A DNA stretch of 64,000 nt. Origin: Flagellimonas beolgyonensis (lineage in GTDB: Bacteria > Bacteroidota > Bacteroidia > Flavobacteriales > Flavobacteriaceae). The DNA lies in the NCBI RefSeq assembly GCF_003992615.1, contig NZ_RZMY01000015.1, positions 124,001-188,000 of the forward strand, read 5' to 3'. The notes beneath the pieces are model-generated. The model searched no databases. It was given only the letters and a program-made list of their open reading frames with translations, and was not told where the DNA came from. Shown here piece by piece: positions 17,818 through 40,601 of the stretch. Numbering within the stretch: the stretch's first letter is position 1; every line of letters begins with the position of its first letter. The translations under genes and the position numbers were made by a program.

Positions 17818-17845
17818 AAATTTATTATGCATGCATAATAAATTT
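17818..17845. promoter_or_regulatory. 28-bp perfect palindrome, probable operator of etfBA
   Basis: A perfect inverted repeat centred between 17831 and 17832 with core TTATGCATGCATAA and A/T arms. It overlaps the expected -33 region of the etfB promoter. The 16-bp core recurs upstream of the GDSL lipoprotein gene (38559-38574). The size and symmetry fit a dimeric regulator of MarR or TetR type; no such gene is in the window. Confidence 0.7.
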
Positions 17846-17858
17846 CATAATTATTAGC

Positions 17859-17866
17859 TATATTTG
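17859..17866 (+). promoter_or_regulatory. -7 element of the etfB promoter
   Basis: TATATTTG matches TAnnTTTG. The usual TTG about 19-20 bp upstream is absent; that position is occupied by the palindrome, as would be expected if an activator replaces the -33 contact. The start site would be near 17872. Confidence 0.55.
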
Positions 17867-17888: not shown

Positions 17889-18635
17889 ATGAAGATTTTA
17901 ATTTGCATAAGCAACGTACCGGATACTACTTCCAAAATCAATTTTACGGAAGGCGATACCAAGTTTGATACAAACGGGGTACAATTTGTGATTAATCCCA
18001 ATGATGAATTTGGGCTAACACGTGCCATGTGGTTCAAAGAAAAGCAGGGAGCTACCGTTCATGTGGCCACTGTGGGTGGTGCCCAAACGGAGCCCACCAT
18101 CCGAAAGGCATTGGCGATTGGCGCCGATGAGGCCATTCGGGTGAATGCAGAACCAACCGATGGTTTTTATGTAGCCAAGCAGTTGGCCGAAGTAGTTAAA
18201 AATGGTGGTTACGACCTTGTCATTGCAGGCAGGGAGTCCATCGACTACAATGGGGGCATGGTTCCCGGCATGTTGGCCACGTTGTTGGACATGAACTTTG
18301 TAAACACCTGTATCGGTTTGGAAATTGACGGAACCAACGTTACCGCAATGCGTGAAATCGATGGTGGAAAGGAAAAACTAAGCACCTCTTTGCCCCTGGT
18401 GATCGGAGGTCAAAAAGGGTTGGTGGAAGAAAGCGACCTGCGCATCCCCAATATGCGTGGCATTATGATGGCGCGCCAAAAAGCCCTTAATGTGGTGGAG
18501 CCAGTTGAGGCTGCCAAACCCACACAAGACCAAAAATTCGATAAACCAGCGGCCAAAGGTCCCGTTAAACTGGTGGACGCCGACAATGTGGGAGAACTGG
18601 TAGACCTATTGCACAACGAAGCTAAAGTGATTTAA
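17889..18635 (+). CDS. etfB: Electron transfer flavoprotein, beta subunit
   Basis: Forms with the alpha subunit the soluble FAD-containing carrier that takes electrons from acyl-CoA dehydrogenases and passes them to the quinone pool. The 248 residues show the ETF beta pattern: MKILICISNVPDTTSKI, INPNDEFGLTRAM, VATVGGAQTEPTIRKALAIGADEAIRV, then DLVIAGRESIDYNGG and GLVEESDLRIPNMRGIM (AMP-binding region). Full length. It is the first gene of the etfBA pair, behind the 28-bp palindrome, which suggests control with fatty-acid or amino-acid oxidation. Confidence 0.95.
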   Translation: MKILICISNVPDTTSKINFTEGDTKFDTNGVQFVINPNDEFGLTRAMWFKEKQGATVHVATVGGAQTEPTIRKALAIGADEAIRVNAEPTDGFYVAKQLAEVVKNGGYDLVIAGRESIDYNGGMVPGMLATLLDMNFVNTCIGLEIDGTNVTAMREIDGGKEKLSTSLPLVIGGQKGLVEESDLRIPNMRGIMMARQKALNVVEPVEAAKPTQDQKFDKPAAKGPVKLVDADNVGELVDLLHNEAKVI

Positions 18636-18690: not shown

Positions 18691-18711
18691 ATATTGAAAT
18701 TTCAAAAAATT

Positions 18712-19680
18712 ATGTCAGTATTAGTATATACAGAATCCTTCAAGGGAAAATTCAAAAAAAATGCATTTGAGGTTGTATCCTATGCCTACAAAGTGGCCCA
18801 GGACCTAGGCACAAGCGTTACTGCGGTGACCTTCAATGCGGAAAACGATGCCGAATTGGGAACCTACGGGGTTTCCAAAGTGTTGAAAATAGTGGACGAT
18901 CAATTGGCTACCTTTAATGCAAAAGCCTATGCTGATGCCTTGGCGCAAGCGGCCCAAGCCGAAGGAGCAAAAGTGATTGTTCTGAGCACCTCGGCCGATT
19001 CCAAATATTTGGCCCCGATATTGGCCACAAAATTGAACGCTGGTTTCGTACCCAACGTGGTTGCTGCACCCGATAGCACTTCCCCATTTGTGGTAAAACG
19101 AACCGCATTCAGTAATAAAGGCTTTGCGCACACAGAAATTTCCTCGGACATCAAGGTCATTGGCGTTTCCAACAATGCTTTTGGCGTAGTGGAAAACAAC
19201 ACTTCTGCCAATGTCGAAAGTTTTAGCCCTTCTTTAAGTGAAGGTGATTTTGCGGTTAAATCCGTAGAGGTGGATCGCGTGGCCGGAAAAGTGACCATTG
19301 CCGATGCCGATATTGTGGTATCCGGTGGTCGTGGATTGAAAGGTCCTGAGAATTGGGGTATGATCGAGGAACTCGCCGATGTTTTGGGCGCAGCCACCGC
19401 ATGTTCCAAACCTGTATCCGATTTGGGATGGCGTCCGCATGGCGAGCACGTGGGCCAAACTGGAAAACCAGTGGCGAGCAACCTATACATTGCGGTTGGT
19501 ATTTCTGGCGCCATTCAGCATTTGGCCGGTGTTAGCGCTTCAAAAGTAAAAGTGGTGATCAACAACGACCCCGAAGCACCTTTCTTTAAGGCTGCAGATT
19601 ATGGTATCGTTGGGGATGCCTTCGAGGTAGTGCCCAAACTCATCGAAAAATTAAAGGAATTTAAAGCCCAAAACGCTTAA
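18712..19680 (+). CDS. etfA: Electron transfer flavoprotein, alpha subunit
   Basis: Alpha subunit of ETF, holding FAD. The start at 18712 (MSVLVYTESFKGKFKK) gives 322 residues; a TTG six codons earlier is less likely. The C-terminal FAD-binding signature is clear: VSGGRGLKGPENWGMIEELA, then SKPVSDLGWRPHGEHVGQTG and LYIAVGISGAIQHLAGV, ending in DYGIVGDAFEVVPKLIEKL. It follows etfB after 76 bp containing a small inverted repeat, and a terminator follows it, so the operon is etfBA only. Confidence 0.95.
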   Translation: MSVLVYTESFKGKFKKNAFEVVSYAYKVAQDLGTSVTAVTFNAENDAELGTYGVSKVLKIVDDQLATFNAKAYADALAQAAQAEGAKVIVLSTSADSKYLAPILATKLNAGFVPNVVAAPDSTSPFVVKRTAFSNKGFAHTEISSDIKVIGVSNNAFGVVENNTSANVESFSPSLSEGDFAVKSVEVDRVAGKVTIADADIVVSGGRGLKGPENWGMIEELADVLGAATACSKPVSDLGWRPHGEHVGQTGKPVASNLYIAVGISGAIQHLAGVSASKVKVVINNDPEAPFFKAADYGIVGDAFEVVPKLIEKLKEFKAQNA

Positions 19681-37038: not shown

Positions 37039-37056
37039 CACATCTAAATGGACTCC

Positions 37057-37773
37057 ATGACAAAGCTTAGCGTCAATATAAATAAACTGGCCACCCTTCG
37101 GAATTCACGCGGGGGCAATGTACCCAACCTGATTACCTCGGCACAGGATATCGAATCTTTTGGGGCCGAGGGGATTACCATCCACCCCAGGCCAGATGAA
37201 CGACATATCCGCTATCAAGATGCCCGAGATCTGAAAAAGGTGGTCACCACTGAATTCAATATCGAAGGGAATCCGGTTCCAAAATTCATCGATTTGGTAT
37301 TGGAGGTGAAGCCGACCCAGGTAACCTTGGTACCCGATGCCGAAGATGCCATAACCTCGAATGCAGGCTGGGACACCATTAAACACAAAGATTTTTTGGT
37401 AGATGTGATCCAAACCATTAAGGAAAATGGCATACGAACTTCCATTTTTGTGGATCCAAGCGAAAAGATGGTGGAAGGTGCCGCGGCCACGGGGACTGAC
37501 CGAGTGGAATTATATACCGAAAGTTTTGCCCATTTGTTTGCACTAGGAAAGAAGGAAGAAAGCATAGCCTCGTTTATCAAGGCCGCTGAAATGGCAGATA
37601 AAGTTGGTCTTGGATTAAATGCCGGACACGACCTAAGTTTGGACAATATCAAATTTTTTAAAGAGCACATCCCCAACCTTTTGGAAGTATCCATCGGACA
37701 TGCCTTGATTTGTGAATCGATATATTTGGGACTGGAGAATGTCATCAACATGTATTTACACCGATTGAAATGA
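37057..37773 (+). CDS. pdxJ: Pyridoxine 5'-phosphate synthase
   Basis: Last enzyme of the DXP-dependent vitamin B6 route; it condenses 1-deoxyxylulose 5-phosphate and aminoacetone 3-phosphate. The 238 residues start MTKLSVNINKLATLRNSRGGN (an ATG three codons earlier is possible) and carry GITIHPRPDERHI, VTLVPDAEDAITS, RVELYTESFA and GLNAGHDLSL. It overlaps the next gene in ATGA, so a PLP precursor enzyme is coupled to an alpha/beta hydrolase. A Bacteroidetes -7 element lies just upstream. Confidence 0.96.
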   Translation: MTKLSVNINKLATLRNSRGGNVPNLITSAQDIESFGAEGITIHPRPDERHIRYQDARDLKKVVTTEFNIEGNPVPKFIDLVLEVKPTQVTLVPDAEDAITSNAGWDTIKHKDFLVDVIQTIKENGIRTSIFVDPSEKMVEGAAATGTDRVELYTESFAHLFALGKKEESIASFIKAAEMADKVGLGLNAGHDLSLDNIKFFKEHIPNLLEVSIGHALICESIYLGLENVINMYLHRLK

Positions 37774-38543
37774 TGGAAATTTTGCATTCCAAAATACTGG
37801 GCGAAGGGCAACCCTTTCTCATCCTTCATGGCTTTTTGGGCATGTCGGACAATTGGAAGACCTTGGGTACCGAATATGCCGAGAAAGGCTACCAGGTGCA
37901 CTTGATCGACCAACGCAATCATGGTAAAAGTTTCCATTCCCCCGATTTTGACTACCAGTTGTTGGCAGAGGATGTTGTCCGGTACATGAACCATCATCAT
38001 ATCCCCTCTGCAATTGTATTGGGCCATTCCATGGGCGGCAAGACCGCCATGCAGTTGGCCACATCCGAACCTGATCGGGTAAGCAAATTGATCGTTGCGG
38101 ATATTGCCCCTAAATTTTATCCGCCCCATCACGATTTCATTTTTAATGGACTTTCCCATTTGGATTTCGACCAAATCGCAAGCAGACGGGAAGCCGACGA
38201 GGAACTTTCCAAATACATCAAGGATTTTGGCATTAGGGCCTTTTTATTGAAAAACCTGTACTGGGTGGAACAAGGCAAGTTGGGATTTCGCTTCAATTTT
38301 GAAGTGCTTCGAAACAAAATGGATGAAATCGGAGACAACATTTCCGCCACTGCAGTCTACGAGGGCCCTACCCTATTTTTAAGGGGTGATCGGTCGGAAT
38401 ACATCATGCCCACAGACGCTTCGGACATCAAAAAACACTTCCCCAATGCCCAAATAGAAACCATTGATCGGGCTGGTCATTGGTTACATGCGGAAAACCC
38501 GGAGCAATTCTTTGAAAAGAGCATGGCATTTTTAAATTCATAA
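37770..38543 (+). CDS. Alpha/beta hydrolase (esterase YbfF-like)
   Basis: Hydrolase of 257 residues. The nucleophile elbow is GHSMGG near residue 92, preceded by the oxyanion segment LHGFLGMSDNW; the acid is likely Asp in LFLRGDRSEYI and the catalytic His is in GHWLHAENPEQF. Resembles YbfF/acyl-ester hydrolases acting on small or acyl-CoA-type esters. It overlaps pdxJ by 4 bp in ATGA. The T-rich palindrome at 38559 lies 16 bp after its stop and may also act as a weak terminator. Confidence 0.9.
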   Translation: MMEILHSKILGEGQPFLILHGFLGMSDNWKTLGTEYAEKGYQVHLIDQRNHGKSFHSPDFDYQLLAEDVVRYMNHHHIPSAIVLGHSMGGKTAMQLATSEPDRVSKLIVADIAPKFYPPHHDFIFNGLSHLDFDQIASRREADEELSKYIKDFGIRAFLLKNLYWVEQGKLGFRFNFEVLRNKMDEIGDNISATAVYEGPTLFLRGDRSEYIMPTDASDIKKHFPNAQIETIDRAGHWLHAENPEQFFEKSMAFLNS

Positions 38544-38558
38544 AATTTACCTGTTTTT

Positions 38559-38574
38559 ATTATGCATGCATAAT
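38559..38574. promoter_or_regulatory. Second copy of the etf-type palindrome
   Basis: ATTATGCATGCATAAT, identical to the inner 16 bp of the palindrome before etfB. It sits 17 bp upstream of the -33 element of the GDSL-lipoprotein promoter. The T run immediately after it means weak terminator activity for the preceding gene is an alternative. Confidence 0.65.
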
Positions 38575-38590
38575 TTTTTTGTGCTTTTAA

Positions 38591-38621
38591 TTGTCTGTAT
38601 AACAAATTTGATATAGATTTG
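38591..38621 (+). promoter_or_regulatory. Promoter of the GDSL lipoprotein gene
   Basis: TTG at 38591-38593 and TAGATTTG at 38614-38621, 20 bp apart, match the Bacteroidetes primary promoter consensus. The start site would be near 38627, giving a leader of about 53 nt. Confidence 0.65.
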
Positions 38622-38679
38622 GTTTATTCTGGTTTTACCATAACGATTAACATAAACTAACTCTAACAGATTTTTAGAT

Positions 38680-40179
38680 ATGAAAAAGTTGTATGCCTTA
38701 CTTCCTTTTTTAGGCCTATTCTTGATTGCATGCGAAGACGACACCGTAGTGGAAACTCCGGAACCCACGCCGGTTGAATATACATCAGGTACTGCTGATT
38801 TCTCCAACTATGTTGCCATCGGGAACTCATTGACCGCTGGTTATTCTGACAACGCCCTTTTTGAGGCCGGACAAGAGGCTTCTTTTCCAAATATGTTGGC
38901 AGCCAACTTTGCACTGGCCGGTGGAGGATCTTTTGAAATTCCTTTTATGGCAGACAACTTGGGAGGTATGACACTTGGTGGAACACCCATTTCAGGTAAC
39001 AGATTGATTTTGGCTTTCCTTCCAAGTGGTGCGGCACCAACTCCGGTTGCAGGGCAAGGAAGTACTGAAGTATCCAATAAATTGGCTGGCCCTTTTAACA
39101 ATATGGGAGTCCCCGGCGCAAAAAGTTATGAATTGTTGGCAGATGGCTATGGTAGTGTGGCCGGTGTGGCCATGGGTACTGCGAATCCTTATTTTGCAAG
39201 GTTCTCTTCTTCTGAATCCGCTTCGGTGATTACCGATGCCGCTGCCCAAGGCGCATCATTCTTTTCCTTGTGGGCAGGCAACAACGACATTTTATTGTAT
39301 GCCACTGGTGGCGGAACTGGAGTGGATCAAACTGGAAACATTAATCCAGCCACTTATTCTAGAAACGACATTACCGACCCCAATGTTTTTGCCAATGCGT
39401 TAAATCTTATGCTACAGGCCATGACGGCCAATGGGGCCGGGGGTGTTATTGCCAATTTGCCCAATGTTACCGATATTCCTTATTTCACCACGGTACCCCA
39501 CAATCCAATTCCTTTGGATGCCGCTACTGCCGAATTCTTGAACAGTATGTCCGCATATGGTGCCTACAATGCAGGGTTGGCCCAACTTCAAGGTTTGGGA
39601 CTAATTTCCGCTGAGGAATTGGCCAAACGTACCATCTCTTTTTCCGCAGGTGAAGGCAACGCCGTTGTGATCATCGATGAAGATTTGACTGATTTGACTG
39701 GCTTTAATCCAGCATTGATCAATATGAGACAGGCCACTGCTGACGATCTTATGGTTTTGACCTCAAGGAGTTTTATCGGCACACTGGCAGATCCAAACAA
39801 TCCAGCCTCTGTGAATGGAGTTGGAGTTCCTTTGGGCGACCAATGGGTATTGACCCCGGAGGAACAAGCCGCAGTAGAAACCGCATTGACAGCTTATAAC
39901 CAAACCATTGCTGCTTTGGCCGCATCTTATGACCTAGCCTTTGTGGATGCCAATACCTTGCTTAACGATCTTAAAAATGGTGGTTTCCCACAAGCCGATG
40001 GTAGTGTGGTGACCGCAACTTTCGCAACAGGGGGTGGATTCTCGTTGGACGGTGTGCACCCTTCTCCAAGGGGCTATGCCATATTGGCCAATGCCTTCGT
40101 TGCAGCGATCAACGCCAAATATGGTTCTAATCTTCCCGGTGTAAATCCTTTGGATTATACCGGCTTGTATATTAACTAG
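38680..40179 (+). CDS. SGNH/GDSL-family hydrolase, surface lipoprotein
   Basis: Lipolytic-type ester hydrolase of 499 residues. The lipobox LIAC puts the lipid-modified Cys at 18, followed by EDD, which resembles the surface-export signal of Bacteroidetes lipoproteins. Block I is AIGNSLTAGY with Ser50, the oxyanion residues are in AGNNDIL (block III), and block V is LDGVHPSPRG with the Asp/His pair near 456-459. It is larger than minimal SGNH enzymes. In related genomes an OmpP1/FadL-type transporter often follows; here it does not. An operator shared with etfBA suggests a role in fatty-acid acquisition. Confidence 0.88.
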   Translation: MKKLYALLPFLGLFLIACEDDTVVETPEPTPVEYTSGTADFSNYVAIGNSLTAGYSDNALFEAGQEASFPNMLAANFALAGGGSFEIPFMADNLGGMTLGGTPISGNRLILAFLPSGAAPTPVAGQGSTEVSNKLAGPFNNMGVPGAKSYELLADGYGSVAGVAMGTANPYFARFSSSESASVITDAAAQGASFFSLWAGNNDILLYATGGGTGVDQTGNINPATYSRNDITDPNVFANALNLMLQAMTANGAGGVIANLPNVTDIPYFTTVPHNPIPLDAATAEFLNSMSAYGAYNAGLAQLQGLGLISAEELAKRTISFSAGEGNAVVIIDEDLTDLTGFNPALINMRQATADDLMVLTSRSFIGTLADPNNPASVNGVGVPLGDQWVLTPEEQAAVETALTAYNQTIAALAASYDLAFVDANTLLNDLKNGGFPQADGSVVTATFATGGGFSLDGVHPSPRGYAILANAFVAAINAKYGSNLPGVNPLDYTGLYIN

Positions 40180-40200: not shown

Positions 40201-40228
40201 AAAGGCACCGTTTAGCGGTGCCTTTTTT
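40201..40228 (+). terminator. Terminator after the GDSL gene
   Basis: AAAGGCACCG and CGGTGCCTTT arms with a 5-nt loop, then a T run. It lies 22 bp past the stop. Confidence 0.85.
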
Positions 40229-40256
40229 ATGTACAGAACATTAAATTCGTTATTAT

Positions 40257-40601
40257 ATGAAACTAATCATGCGTCTTTTACTCAACGCCATTGCCGTGGT
40301 CATACTGTCCTATATTCTTCCAGGTGTAGGGGTCGATTCCATGCTTACCGCCATTATTGTCGCCGTGGTGCTCAGTATTCTGAACTTTTTGGTGAAACCG
40401 CTATTGGTCATTTTGACCTTGCCGATCACCGTGCTCACCTTGGGGCTTTTTCTTTTGGTGATCAATGCGATCATCATTTTGATCGCTGCCGACCTTATTG
40501 ATGGTTTTCAGGTTGCCAGCTTTTGGTGGGCCATAATCTTCAGTTTGTTACTGGCCTTTTTACAGGCCATTTTGCACTCCGTTTTAAAGGAAGACCAATA
40601 G
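40257..40601 (+). CDS. Holin-superfamily-IV-like small membrane protein
   Basis: Four-TM protein of 114 residues matching the family named after mycobacteriophage holins (PF04020 type): MRLLLNAIAVVILSYILPGV, TAIIVAVVLSILNFLVKPLL, LGLFLLVINAIIILIAADLI and FWWAIIFSLLLAFLQAIL. Despite the name, bacterial members are chromosomal and of unknown function, and nothing phage-like lies nearby. It sits between a terminator and the tig promoter, so it is a single-gene unit. Confidence 0.88.
   Translation: MKLIMRLLLNAIAVVILSYILPGVGVDSMLTAIIVAVVLSILNFLVKPLLVILTLPITVLTLGLFLLVINAIIILIAADLIDGFQVASFWWAIIFSLLLAFLQAILHSVLKEDQ

Follow-up and report, generated by a model that had tools for sequence, protein, structure and literature searches.

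What does a palindrome do that is found, letter for letter, in front of both a lipase-like gene and the genes for an electron transfer flavoprotein? In the window, by which we mean the whole 64,000-nucleotide stretch of DNA analysed here, the 16-mer ATTATGCATGCATAAT occurs exactly at positions 38,559–38,574, upstream of a gene for a GDSL lipase-like lipoprotein, and at 17,824–17,839, upstream of etfB. The initial annotation had read this recurrence as the mark of a lipid-use regulon under an activator. As judged from sequence comparison, the GDSL-side palindrome is most probably the binding site of a MarR-type switch for fat-breakdown and uptake genes in marine Flavobacteriaceae.

At the GDSL locus, the palindromic, strandless operator core (38,559–38,574) lies within a weight-matrix match spanning 38,554–38,579 and runs on its promoter side into seven T (38,574–38,580, forward strand); a TTG at 38,591–38,593 (forward strand), a possible −33 element by its sequence, stands 20 nt upstream of the −7 box TAGATTTG (38,614–38,621, forward strand), from which a start near 38,626 is predicted. 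The GDSL gene itself (38,680–40,179, forward strand) encodes a 499-aa lipoprotein that matches PF13472 at 34.3 bits, the cut-off being 32.9. It is preceded on the same strand by pdxJ (37,048–37,773) and an alpha/beta hydrolase gene (37,770–38,543), neighbours of conserved context, giving the order pdxJ-hydrolase-site-GDSL with no FadL gene in between. A G+C-rich hairpin with a T-run, read by eye at 40,203–40,229, follows the GDSL gene, which is therefore probably transcribed alone here; further on, a small membrane protein with a match to PF04020 (phage holin superfamily IV) is encoded at 40,257–40,601. At the second locus, the core (17,824–17,839, likewise strandless) sits inside a 26-bp perfect palindrome (17,819–17,844) and is followed on the forward strand by the −7 box TATATTTG (17,859–17,866), by etfB (17,889–18,635; electron transfer flavoprotein beta subunit) and by etfA (18,694–19,680; alpha subunit, start codon uncertain). 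The divergent gene at this locus, transketolase-type and pyruvate dehydrogenase E1 beta-like, was judged an unlikely target because in all 14 loci its strict box is 61.5–62.5 bp away from the site.

Within the window, the 16-mer has no further match at up to three mismatches besides the two exact copies. At this tolerance shuffled windows averaged 0.44 matches, and 8 of 100 shuffles reached the two-copy count; at three mismatches alone the pair is thus weakly unusual, and its exactness is the improbable part. Across the whole genome (3.77 Mb, 18 contigs), the 16-mer occurs five times exactly, once with a single mismatch, never with two and three times with three, compared to no exact copy and six matches at up to three mismatches for the reversed 16-mer used as a control. 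A first-order Markov model predicts 0.0024 exact 16-mers and 0.030 exact 14-mers, where five and six were observed. The palindrome is real, chance being ruled far out, and the recurrence reported in the initial annotation extends well beyond the window. A weight matrix derived from the family's marR promoters (86 of them, this genome's own included; consensus AATTTATTATGCATGCATAATAAATT) scores the two window sites at 43.6 and 31.2 bits, with the next best window position at −3.9 bits and a maximum of 9.1 bits in ten simulated 64-kb sequences.

The genome's six sites (the five exact copies and the one with a single mismatch) all lie upstream of genes, and four of the six loci are plainly lipid-related. 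Besides the two sites in the window, one (C12:542281) lies 37 bp upstream of a MarR gene (G000 C12:542333–542779) that opens the operon marR-fadJ-thiolase-four-helix-bundle gene-FadE; another precedes a gene for a 919-aa TonB-dependent receptor, itself preceded by glmS; a third stands before a KAS III-like enzyme; and the last is shared by divergent genes for a 4HBT-type thioesterase and a nitronate-monooxygenase (NMO)/FabK-like enzyme. The lipid-use regulon postulated earlier is thus supported, since a site heads the marR-fadJ-thiolase-FadE operon here, and the MarR protein is its likely regulator. The FadE of this operon passes the NCBIfam cut-off for Bacillus FadE (730.1 bits against 600), and the 801-aa fadJ product (3-hydroxyacyl-CoA dehydrogenase/enoyl-CoA hydratase) has its best match in Staphylococcus FadB at 608.8, below the cut-off of 999. 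Upstream of this locus, on the same strand and ending 432 bp away, lies an AMP-binding (FadD-like) gene, and the four-helix-bundle gene between thiolase and FadE (L006:11508–11861) is of the 23S rRNA-intervening-sequence type. Of this genome's own FadL homologues (four PF03349 matches, two above the cut-off), none has the palindrome. A block resembling TTGGACATTGTA lies just upstream of the KAS III-like gene's site (L007:7164–7250) and recurs at the KAS III loci of the genus.

The 149-aa MarR protein contains a MarR winged-helix domain (PF01047, 43.3 bits; cut-off 24.6), and a Pfam search at E 0.001 returned MarR models and no GntR model. No NCBIfam MarR equivalogue (e.g., Saro_0803, BilQ, HpaR) reaches its cut-off, the best score being 40.7 bits against 200, and the best named matches are from Allomuricauda, Muricauda and Flagellimonas. 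Its structure model (pLDDT 91.5) matches PDB entries that include MarR, MepR-DNA, HcaR and RovA-DNA; among the residues invariant in 26 aligned sequences are E59, S62, L63, R65, D84 and R86, which the modelled fold suggests as DNA contacts.

An orthologue of this protein, a single match each time, is present in 141 of 149 Flavobacteriaceae genomes (one per genus). Of these 141, we read 86 marR promoters, the 30 best-ranked plus 56 sampled from the remainder at roughly every other position, and 85 of them hold a site within three mismatches of the 14-mer (none in 33, one in 24, two in 23, three in 5, four in 1). Among 80 named genomes, the marR promoter site has no mismatch in 76 and one in 4. 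The fadJ gene directly follows marR in 82 of the 86 family loci, in all 80 named genomes and in 26 of 27 loci. In a sample of the phylum, the MarR protein was found in 36 of 198 genomes, 17 of them outside the family; 11 of these 17 loci were read, of which 10 have a site within three mismatches and 10 an adjoining fadJ. The site is kept in the marR promoter even at 40–49% MarR protein identity. In 74 of the 86 family loci, a box lies 17.5 or 18.5 bp from the centre of the marR site, and at the starts predicted from it the operator overlaps the core promoter of acyl-CoA degradation genes (marR-fadJ), as that of a BadR-like repressor would. MarR-family dimers bind palindromes, often in their own promoters, and the palindrome conserved in the marR promoter is a candidate for such a site. 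In four marR promoters (L069, L245, L270, L317) a pair of operators stands 29 bp apart; a T-run follows the upper one, while the lower one covers the −33 region. A fifth promoter (L264) may share this arrangement.

Throughout the genus of the window, exact 14-mers occur at 2–7 per genome in 60 of 60 genomes, with no control matches. Among the matches listed, which cover 30 of the 60 genomes, all 83 distinct sites, each counted once, fall at the same six loci (TonB 13, marR 20, etfB 14, GDSL 14, KAS III 9, thioesterase/NMO 13). In the family sample of 149 genomes, the exact 14-mer was found in 75 and the control in 2; the other 74 are without it partly because the sites vary. The etfB operator is present in 30 of 30 of the closest MarR-bearing genera, these being the 30 best-ranked loci. 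The 29 site loci read in other genera (one per genome) comprise 11 marR-fadJ, 7 FabK-like/NMO, 2 TonB, 1 GDSL, 1 etfB and 1 KAS III locus, along with 6 that have no obvious lipid target. These six, namely an M3 peptidase (L017), a TetR-like gene (L034) and secreted-looking or unidentified proteins (L019, L022, L038, L041), count against a MarR regulator of fatty-acid genes. The FabK-like/NMO gene behind the site in seven loci (L015, L016, L021, L025, L027, L031, L037) is about 30% identical to ours. One genome of another genus (G086) has seven sites, six of them read and including marR, KAS III, GDSL, etfB and thioesterase/NMO; its TetR-like gene (L034:1605–2255) lies about 100 bp from one of the seven.

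Among the 30 best-ranked GDSL loci, 11 (this genome counted) have the site immediately in front of the GDSL gene, with six or seven T after it in 9 of the 11. For 20 loci, the stretch further upstream was read as well. The order pdxJ-hydrolase-FadL-GDSL was found in 11 of the 20, with the operator before FadL in seven (L396, L397, L400, L401, L402, L404, L407) and none before the FadL-type gene in the other four (L391, L392, L398, L403); all four FadL-type proteins tested match PF03349 (E 1.5e-49 to 2.7e-66). A TonB receptor precedes GDSL in 8 of the 20, with an operator in L395, L408 and L409 and none in L390, L393, L394 and L399 (four of the seven readable, L406 starting inside the gene). 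The window's gene order occurs without a site in one locus (L405; genome G117). This partnership of GDSL with outer-membrane transporters of FadL and TonB type supports a lipid role, and the search for further sites near acyl-CoA dehydrogenase, thiolase and FadL-type genes, proposed in the initial annotation, proved positive, the FadL-type instances (7 of 11 loci) lying in other genera.

The site also follows the regulator through its losses. In the eight genomes in which MarR is absent even at E 0.1, no exact site was found, and the etfB operator is absent in six of the seven of them that have etfB. The exception (G138; L410) keeps its etfB operator at 22.7 bits with both MarR and fadJ absent, perhaps owing to an assembly gap or a recent loss. 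Four MarR-less genomes keep fadJ, and the five loci scanned in them hold no site above 4.4 bits. Conversely, the etfB operator was found in four of five divergent MarR-bearing genomes (12.9–24.0 bits) and was absent in G020.

The position of the sites relative to their promoters bears on whether the regulator represses or activates. Offsets were measured from the site centre to the start of a strict TAnnTTTG box, relaxed boxes being used for GDSL across genera. The offsets of 47.5 (GDSL) and 27.5 (etfB) given in the initial annotation are right for this genome, because such boxes lie at 38,614–38,621 and 17,859–17,866, and their 20-bp difference does amount to two helical turns here; as a rule, however, it is conserved neither within the genus nor across genera. 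Within the genus, the GDSL offset is 47.5 in 14 of 14 loci, while etfB is divided between 27.5 and 28.5 (seven loci each), marR lies at 17.5 in 19 loci and 18.5 in one, and NMO lies at 24.5 in 8 of 13, with no strict box in the remaining five. Outside the genus, etfB offsets, scorable in 24 of the 30 loci, are 27.5 in 23 and 26.5 in one. Across 11 genera, this genome's included, the 11 GDSL loci range over 44.5 (1), 45.5 (3), 46.5 (5) and 47.5 (2). This range, together with NMO at 24.5, rules out strict class I/II activator phasing. No strict TAnnTTTG box was found downstream of the site in the TonB and KAS III promoters of the genus, where relaxed boxes read by eye give offsets of about 45.5 and 26.5, respectively. 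In TonB promoters the usual box is replaced by TATCTTCC or TATATTGC (L005; L395, L408), the latter resembling the TAnnTTGY motif (SM5) of Flavobacterium psychrophilum (PMC9723704). With the box at −12 to −5, as in F. psychrophilum (PMC9723704), the centres are predicted near −30 for marR, −37 for NMO, −40 for etfB and −60 for GDSL. For the thioesterase, all 13 genus loci have the site centred 19–21 bp ahead of the start codon; a strict box is present in one of them, 21.5 bp upstream of the centre, and the centre is placed, less surely, near +10 from the predicted start. A T-run follows the −60 sites of the genus throughout (GDSL 14 of 14, TonB 13 of 13), and none of at least five T follows any of 75 marR −30 sites.

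In our best reading, to which we assign a probability of roughly three-quarters, the palindrome is the operator of an autoregulated MarR repressor of fatty-acid genes that is probably released by acyl-CoA. The protein, encoded elsewhere in the genome as the first gene of the marR-fadJ-thiolase-FadE operon, would bind the two-fold symmetric site as a dimer and block RNA polymerase at marR, where the −33 region is covered, and at the thioesterase gene, where the site comes just after the predicted start; these positions suit a repressor, and on the same grounds the activator of the initial annotation finds no support. The rest of the regulon would comprise etfBA, the GDSL lipoprotein, the TonB receptor, the KAS III-like enzyme, the thioesterase and the FabK-like enzyme. 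Acyl-CoA-sensing MarR repressors offer the analogy for the inducer: on the arrival of lipids, a fatty acyl-CoA probably releases the MarR protein. In F. psychrophilum, mucus and plasma induce beta-oxidation genes (PMC9723704), the outcome that derepression would produce. Against this reading stand the 74 family genomes that lack the exact 14-mer, the operator kept in G138, its absence in G020 and the GDSL operons in which no site was found. The case for repression is weakest at the −60 sites of GDSL and TonB; at such a distance a simple repressor would not be looked for. Such a site may be an auxiliary operator, because four marR promoters pair a −60 T-run site with a −30 site; activation from the −60 sites may also occur.

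Among the alternatives, the one that survives best is a dual regulator, which we consider unlikely: the same MarR protein would repress from −30 and +10 and activate from −40 (etfB) and/or −60 (GDSL, TonB). Centres near −40 and −60 do resemble class II and class I activator positions, the GDSL offset is constant within the genus and the etfB offset nearly so outside it, TTG at −33 is absent from etfB, the T-run is common to the −60 sites, and repression and activation are combined in E. coli FadR (PMC9329746). However, at GDSL the distance varies by 3 bp from genus to genus, which contact on one helix face would tolerate poorly, the NMO sites are out of phase, and the four two-operator marR promoters, with a −60 T-run site above a blocking −30 site, suit an auxiliary operator instead. 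Equally doubtful is the idea that sign or strength is read from operator architecture, with −30/−40 sites silencing beta-oxidation and −60 T-run sites activating or co-operatively tuning the TonB receptor and GDSL genes; if true, Bacteroidota would have their own counterpart of FadR, its two operator architectures maintained from genus to genus. It is highly improbable that the palindrome serves another DNA-binding protein, with marR just one of that protein's targets: MarR binding is itself inferred, and the TetR-like gene of another genus is also near a site, but the site tracks the presence of marR, persists in its promoter at the low protein identities given above, and has marR as the only regulator among the annotated site-adjacent proteins of this genome. 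The chance that the palindrome before GDSL acts as an intrinsic terminator for the hydrolase gene upstream is negligible, for although it lies 15 bp after the hydrolase stop codon and the seven T pointed out in the initial annotation are indeed there, its hairpin is weak (−2.0 kcal/mol, z +0.73, no stronger than in shuffled sequences, whereas the glmS terminator reaches −13.2), a terminator scan detected none at this site, and a site with a T-run also lies inside marR promoters and, at TonB, after a separate glmS terminator. The longer etfB palindrome folds at −8.2 kcal/mol and has no T-run.

With an autoregulated MarR repressor, most of the Flavobacteriaceae genera sampled (141 of 149 have MarR) would gain a candidate fatty-acid regulator together with its operator and targets, the GDSL lipoprotein would be linked with outer-membrane genes of FadL and TonB type, and lipid use by abundant marine bacteria would become testable. 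In the open-licence literature searched, we found no account of a MarR regulator of Bacteroidota fatty-acid genes and no text containing TTATGCATGCATAA; nor did that literature yield any fatty-acid regulator for Bacteroidota, those of E. coli being well described.

As regards known systems, the modelled fold is close to MepR-DNA (4lln, TMq up to 0.83), RovA-DNA (4aij, 0.82) and HcaR (4rgr, 0.71), although HcaR, MepR, MarR and RovA differ in sequence (14–24% identity), ligands and targets. The enzymes of the marR operon (FadE, fadJ product) resemble those of the Bacillus fadNAE operon, and the Bacillus FadR regulator belongs to the TetR family. E. coli FadR likewise places beta-oxidation enzymes and outer-membrane uptake under one regulator, some of its sites lying puzzlingly far upstream (fadD, −100), but it is a GntR-family protein that is not autoregulated and has another operator, unlike the MarR-type protein with a site in its own promoter described here (PMC9329746). 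BadR of Rhodopseudomonas palustris and Aromatoleum is an acyl-CoA-responsive MarR repressor of acyl-CoA degradation genes whose operators overlap predicted −35 boxes (PMC9795900). It is released by an acyl-CoA (cyclohexane carboxylate-CoA), a release that for the Flavobacteriaceae protein is drawn by analogy, and it differs in its operator (CAAN4TTG versus TATGCRYGCATA), its alicyclic acid pathway and its proteobacterial hosts (PMC9795900). The nearest parallels are BadR in mechanism and the E. coli FadR regulon in scope.
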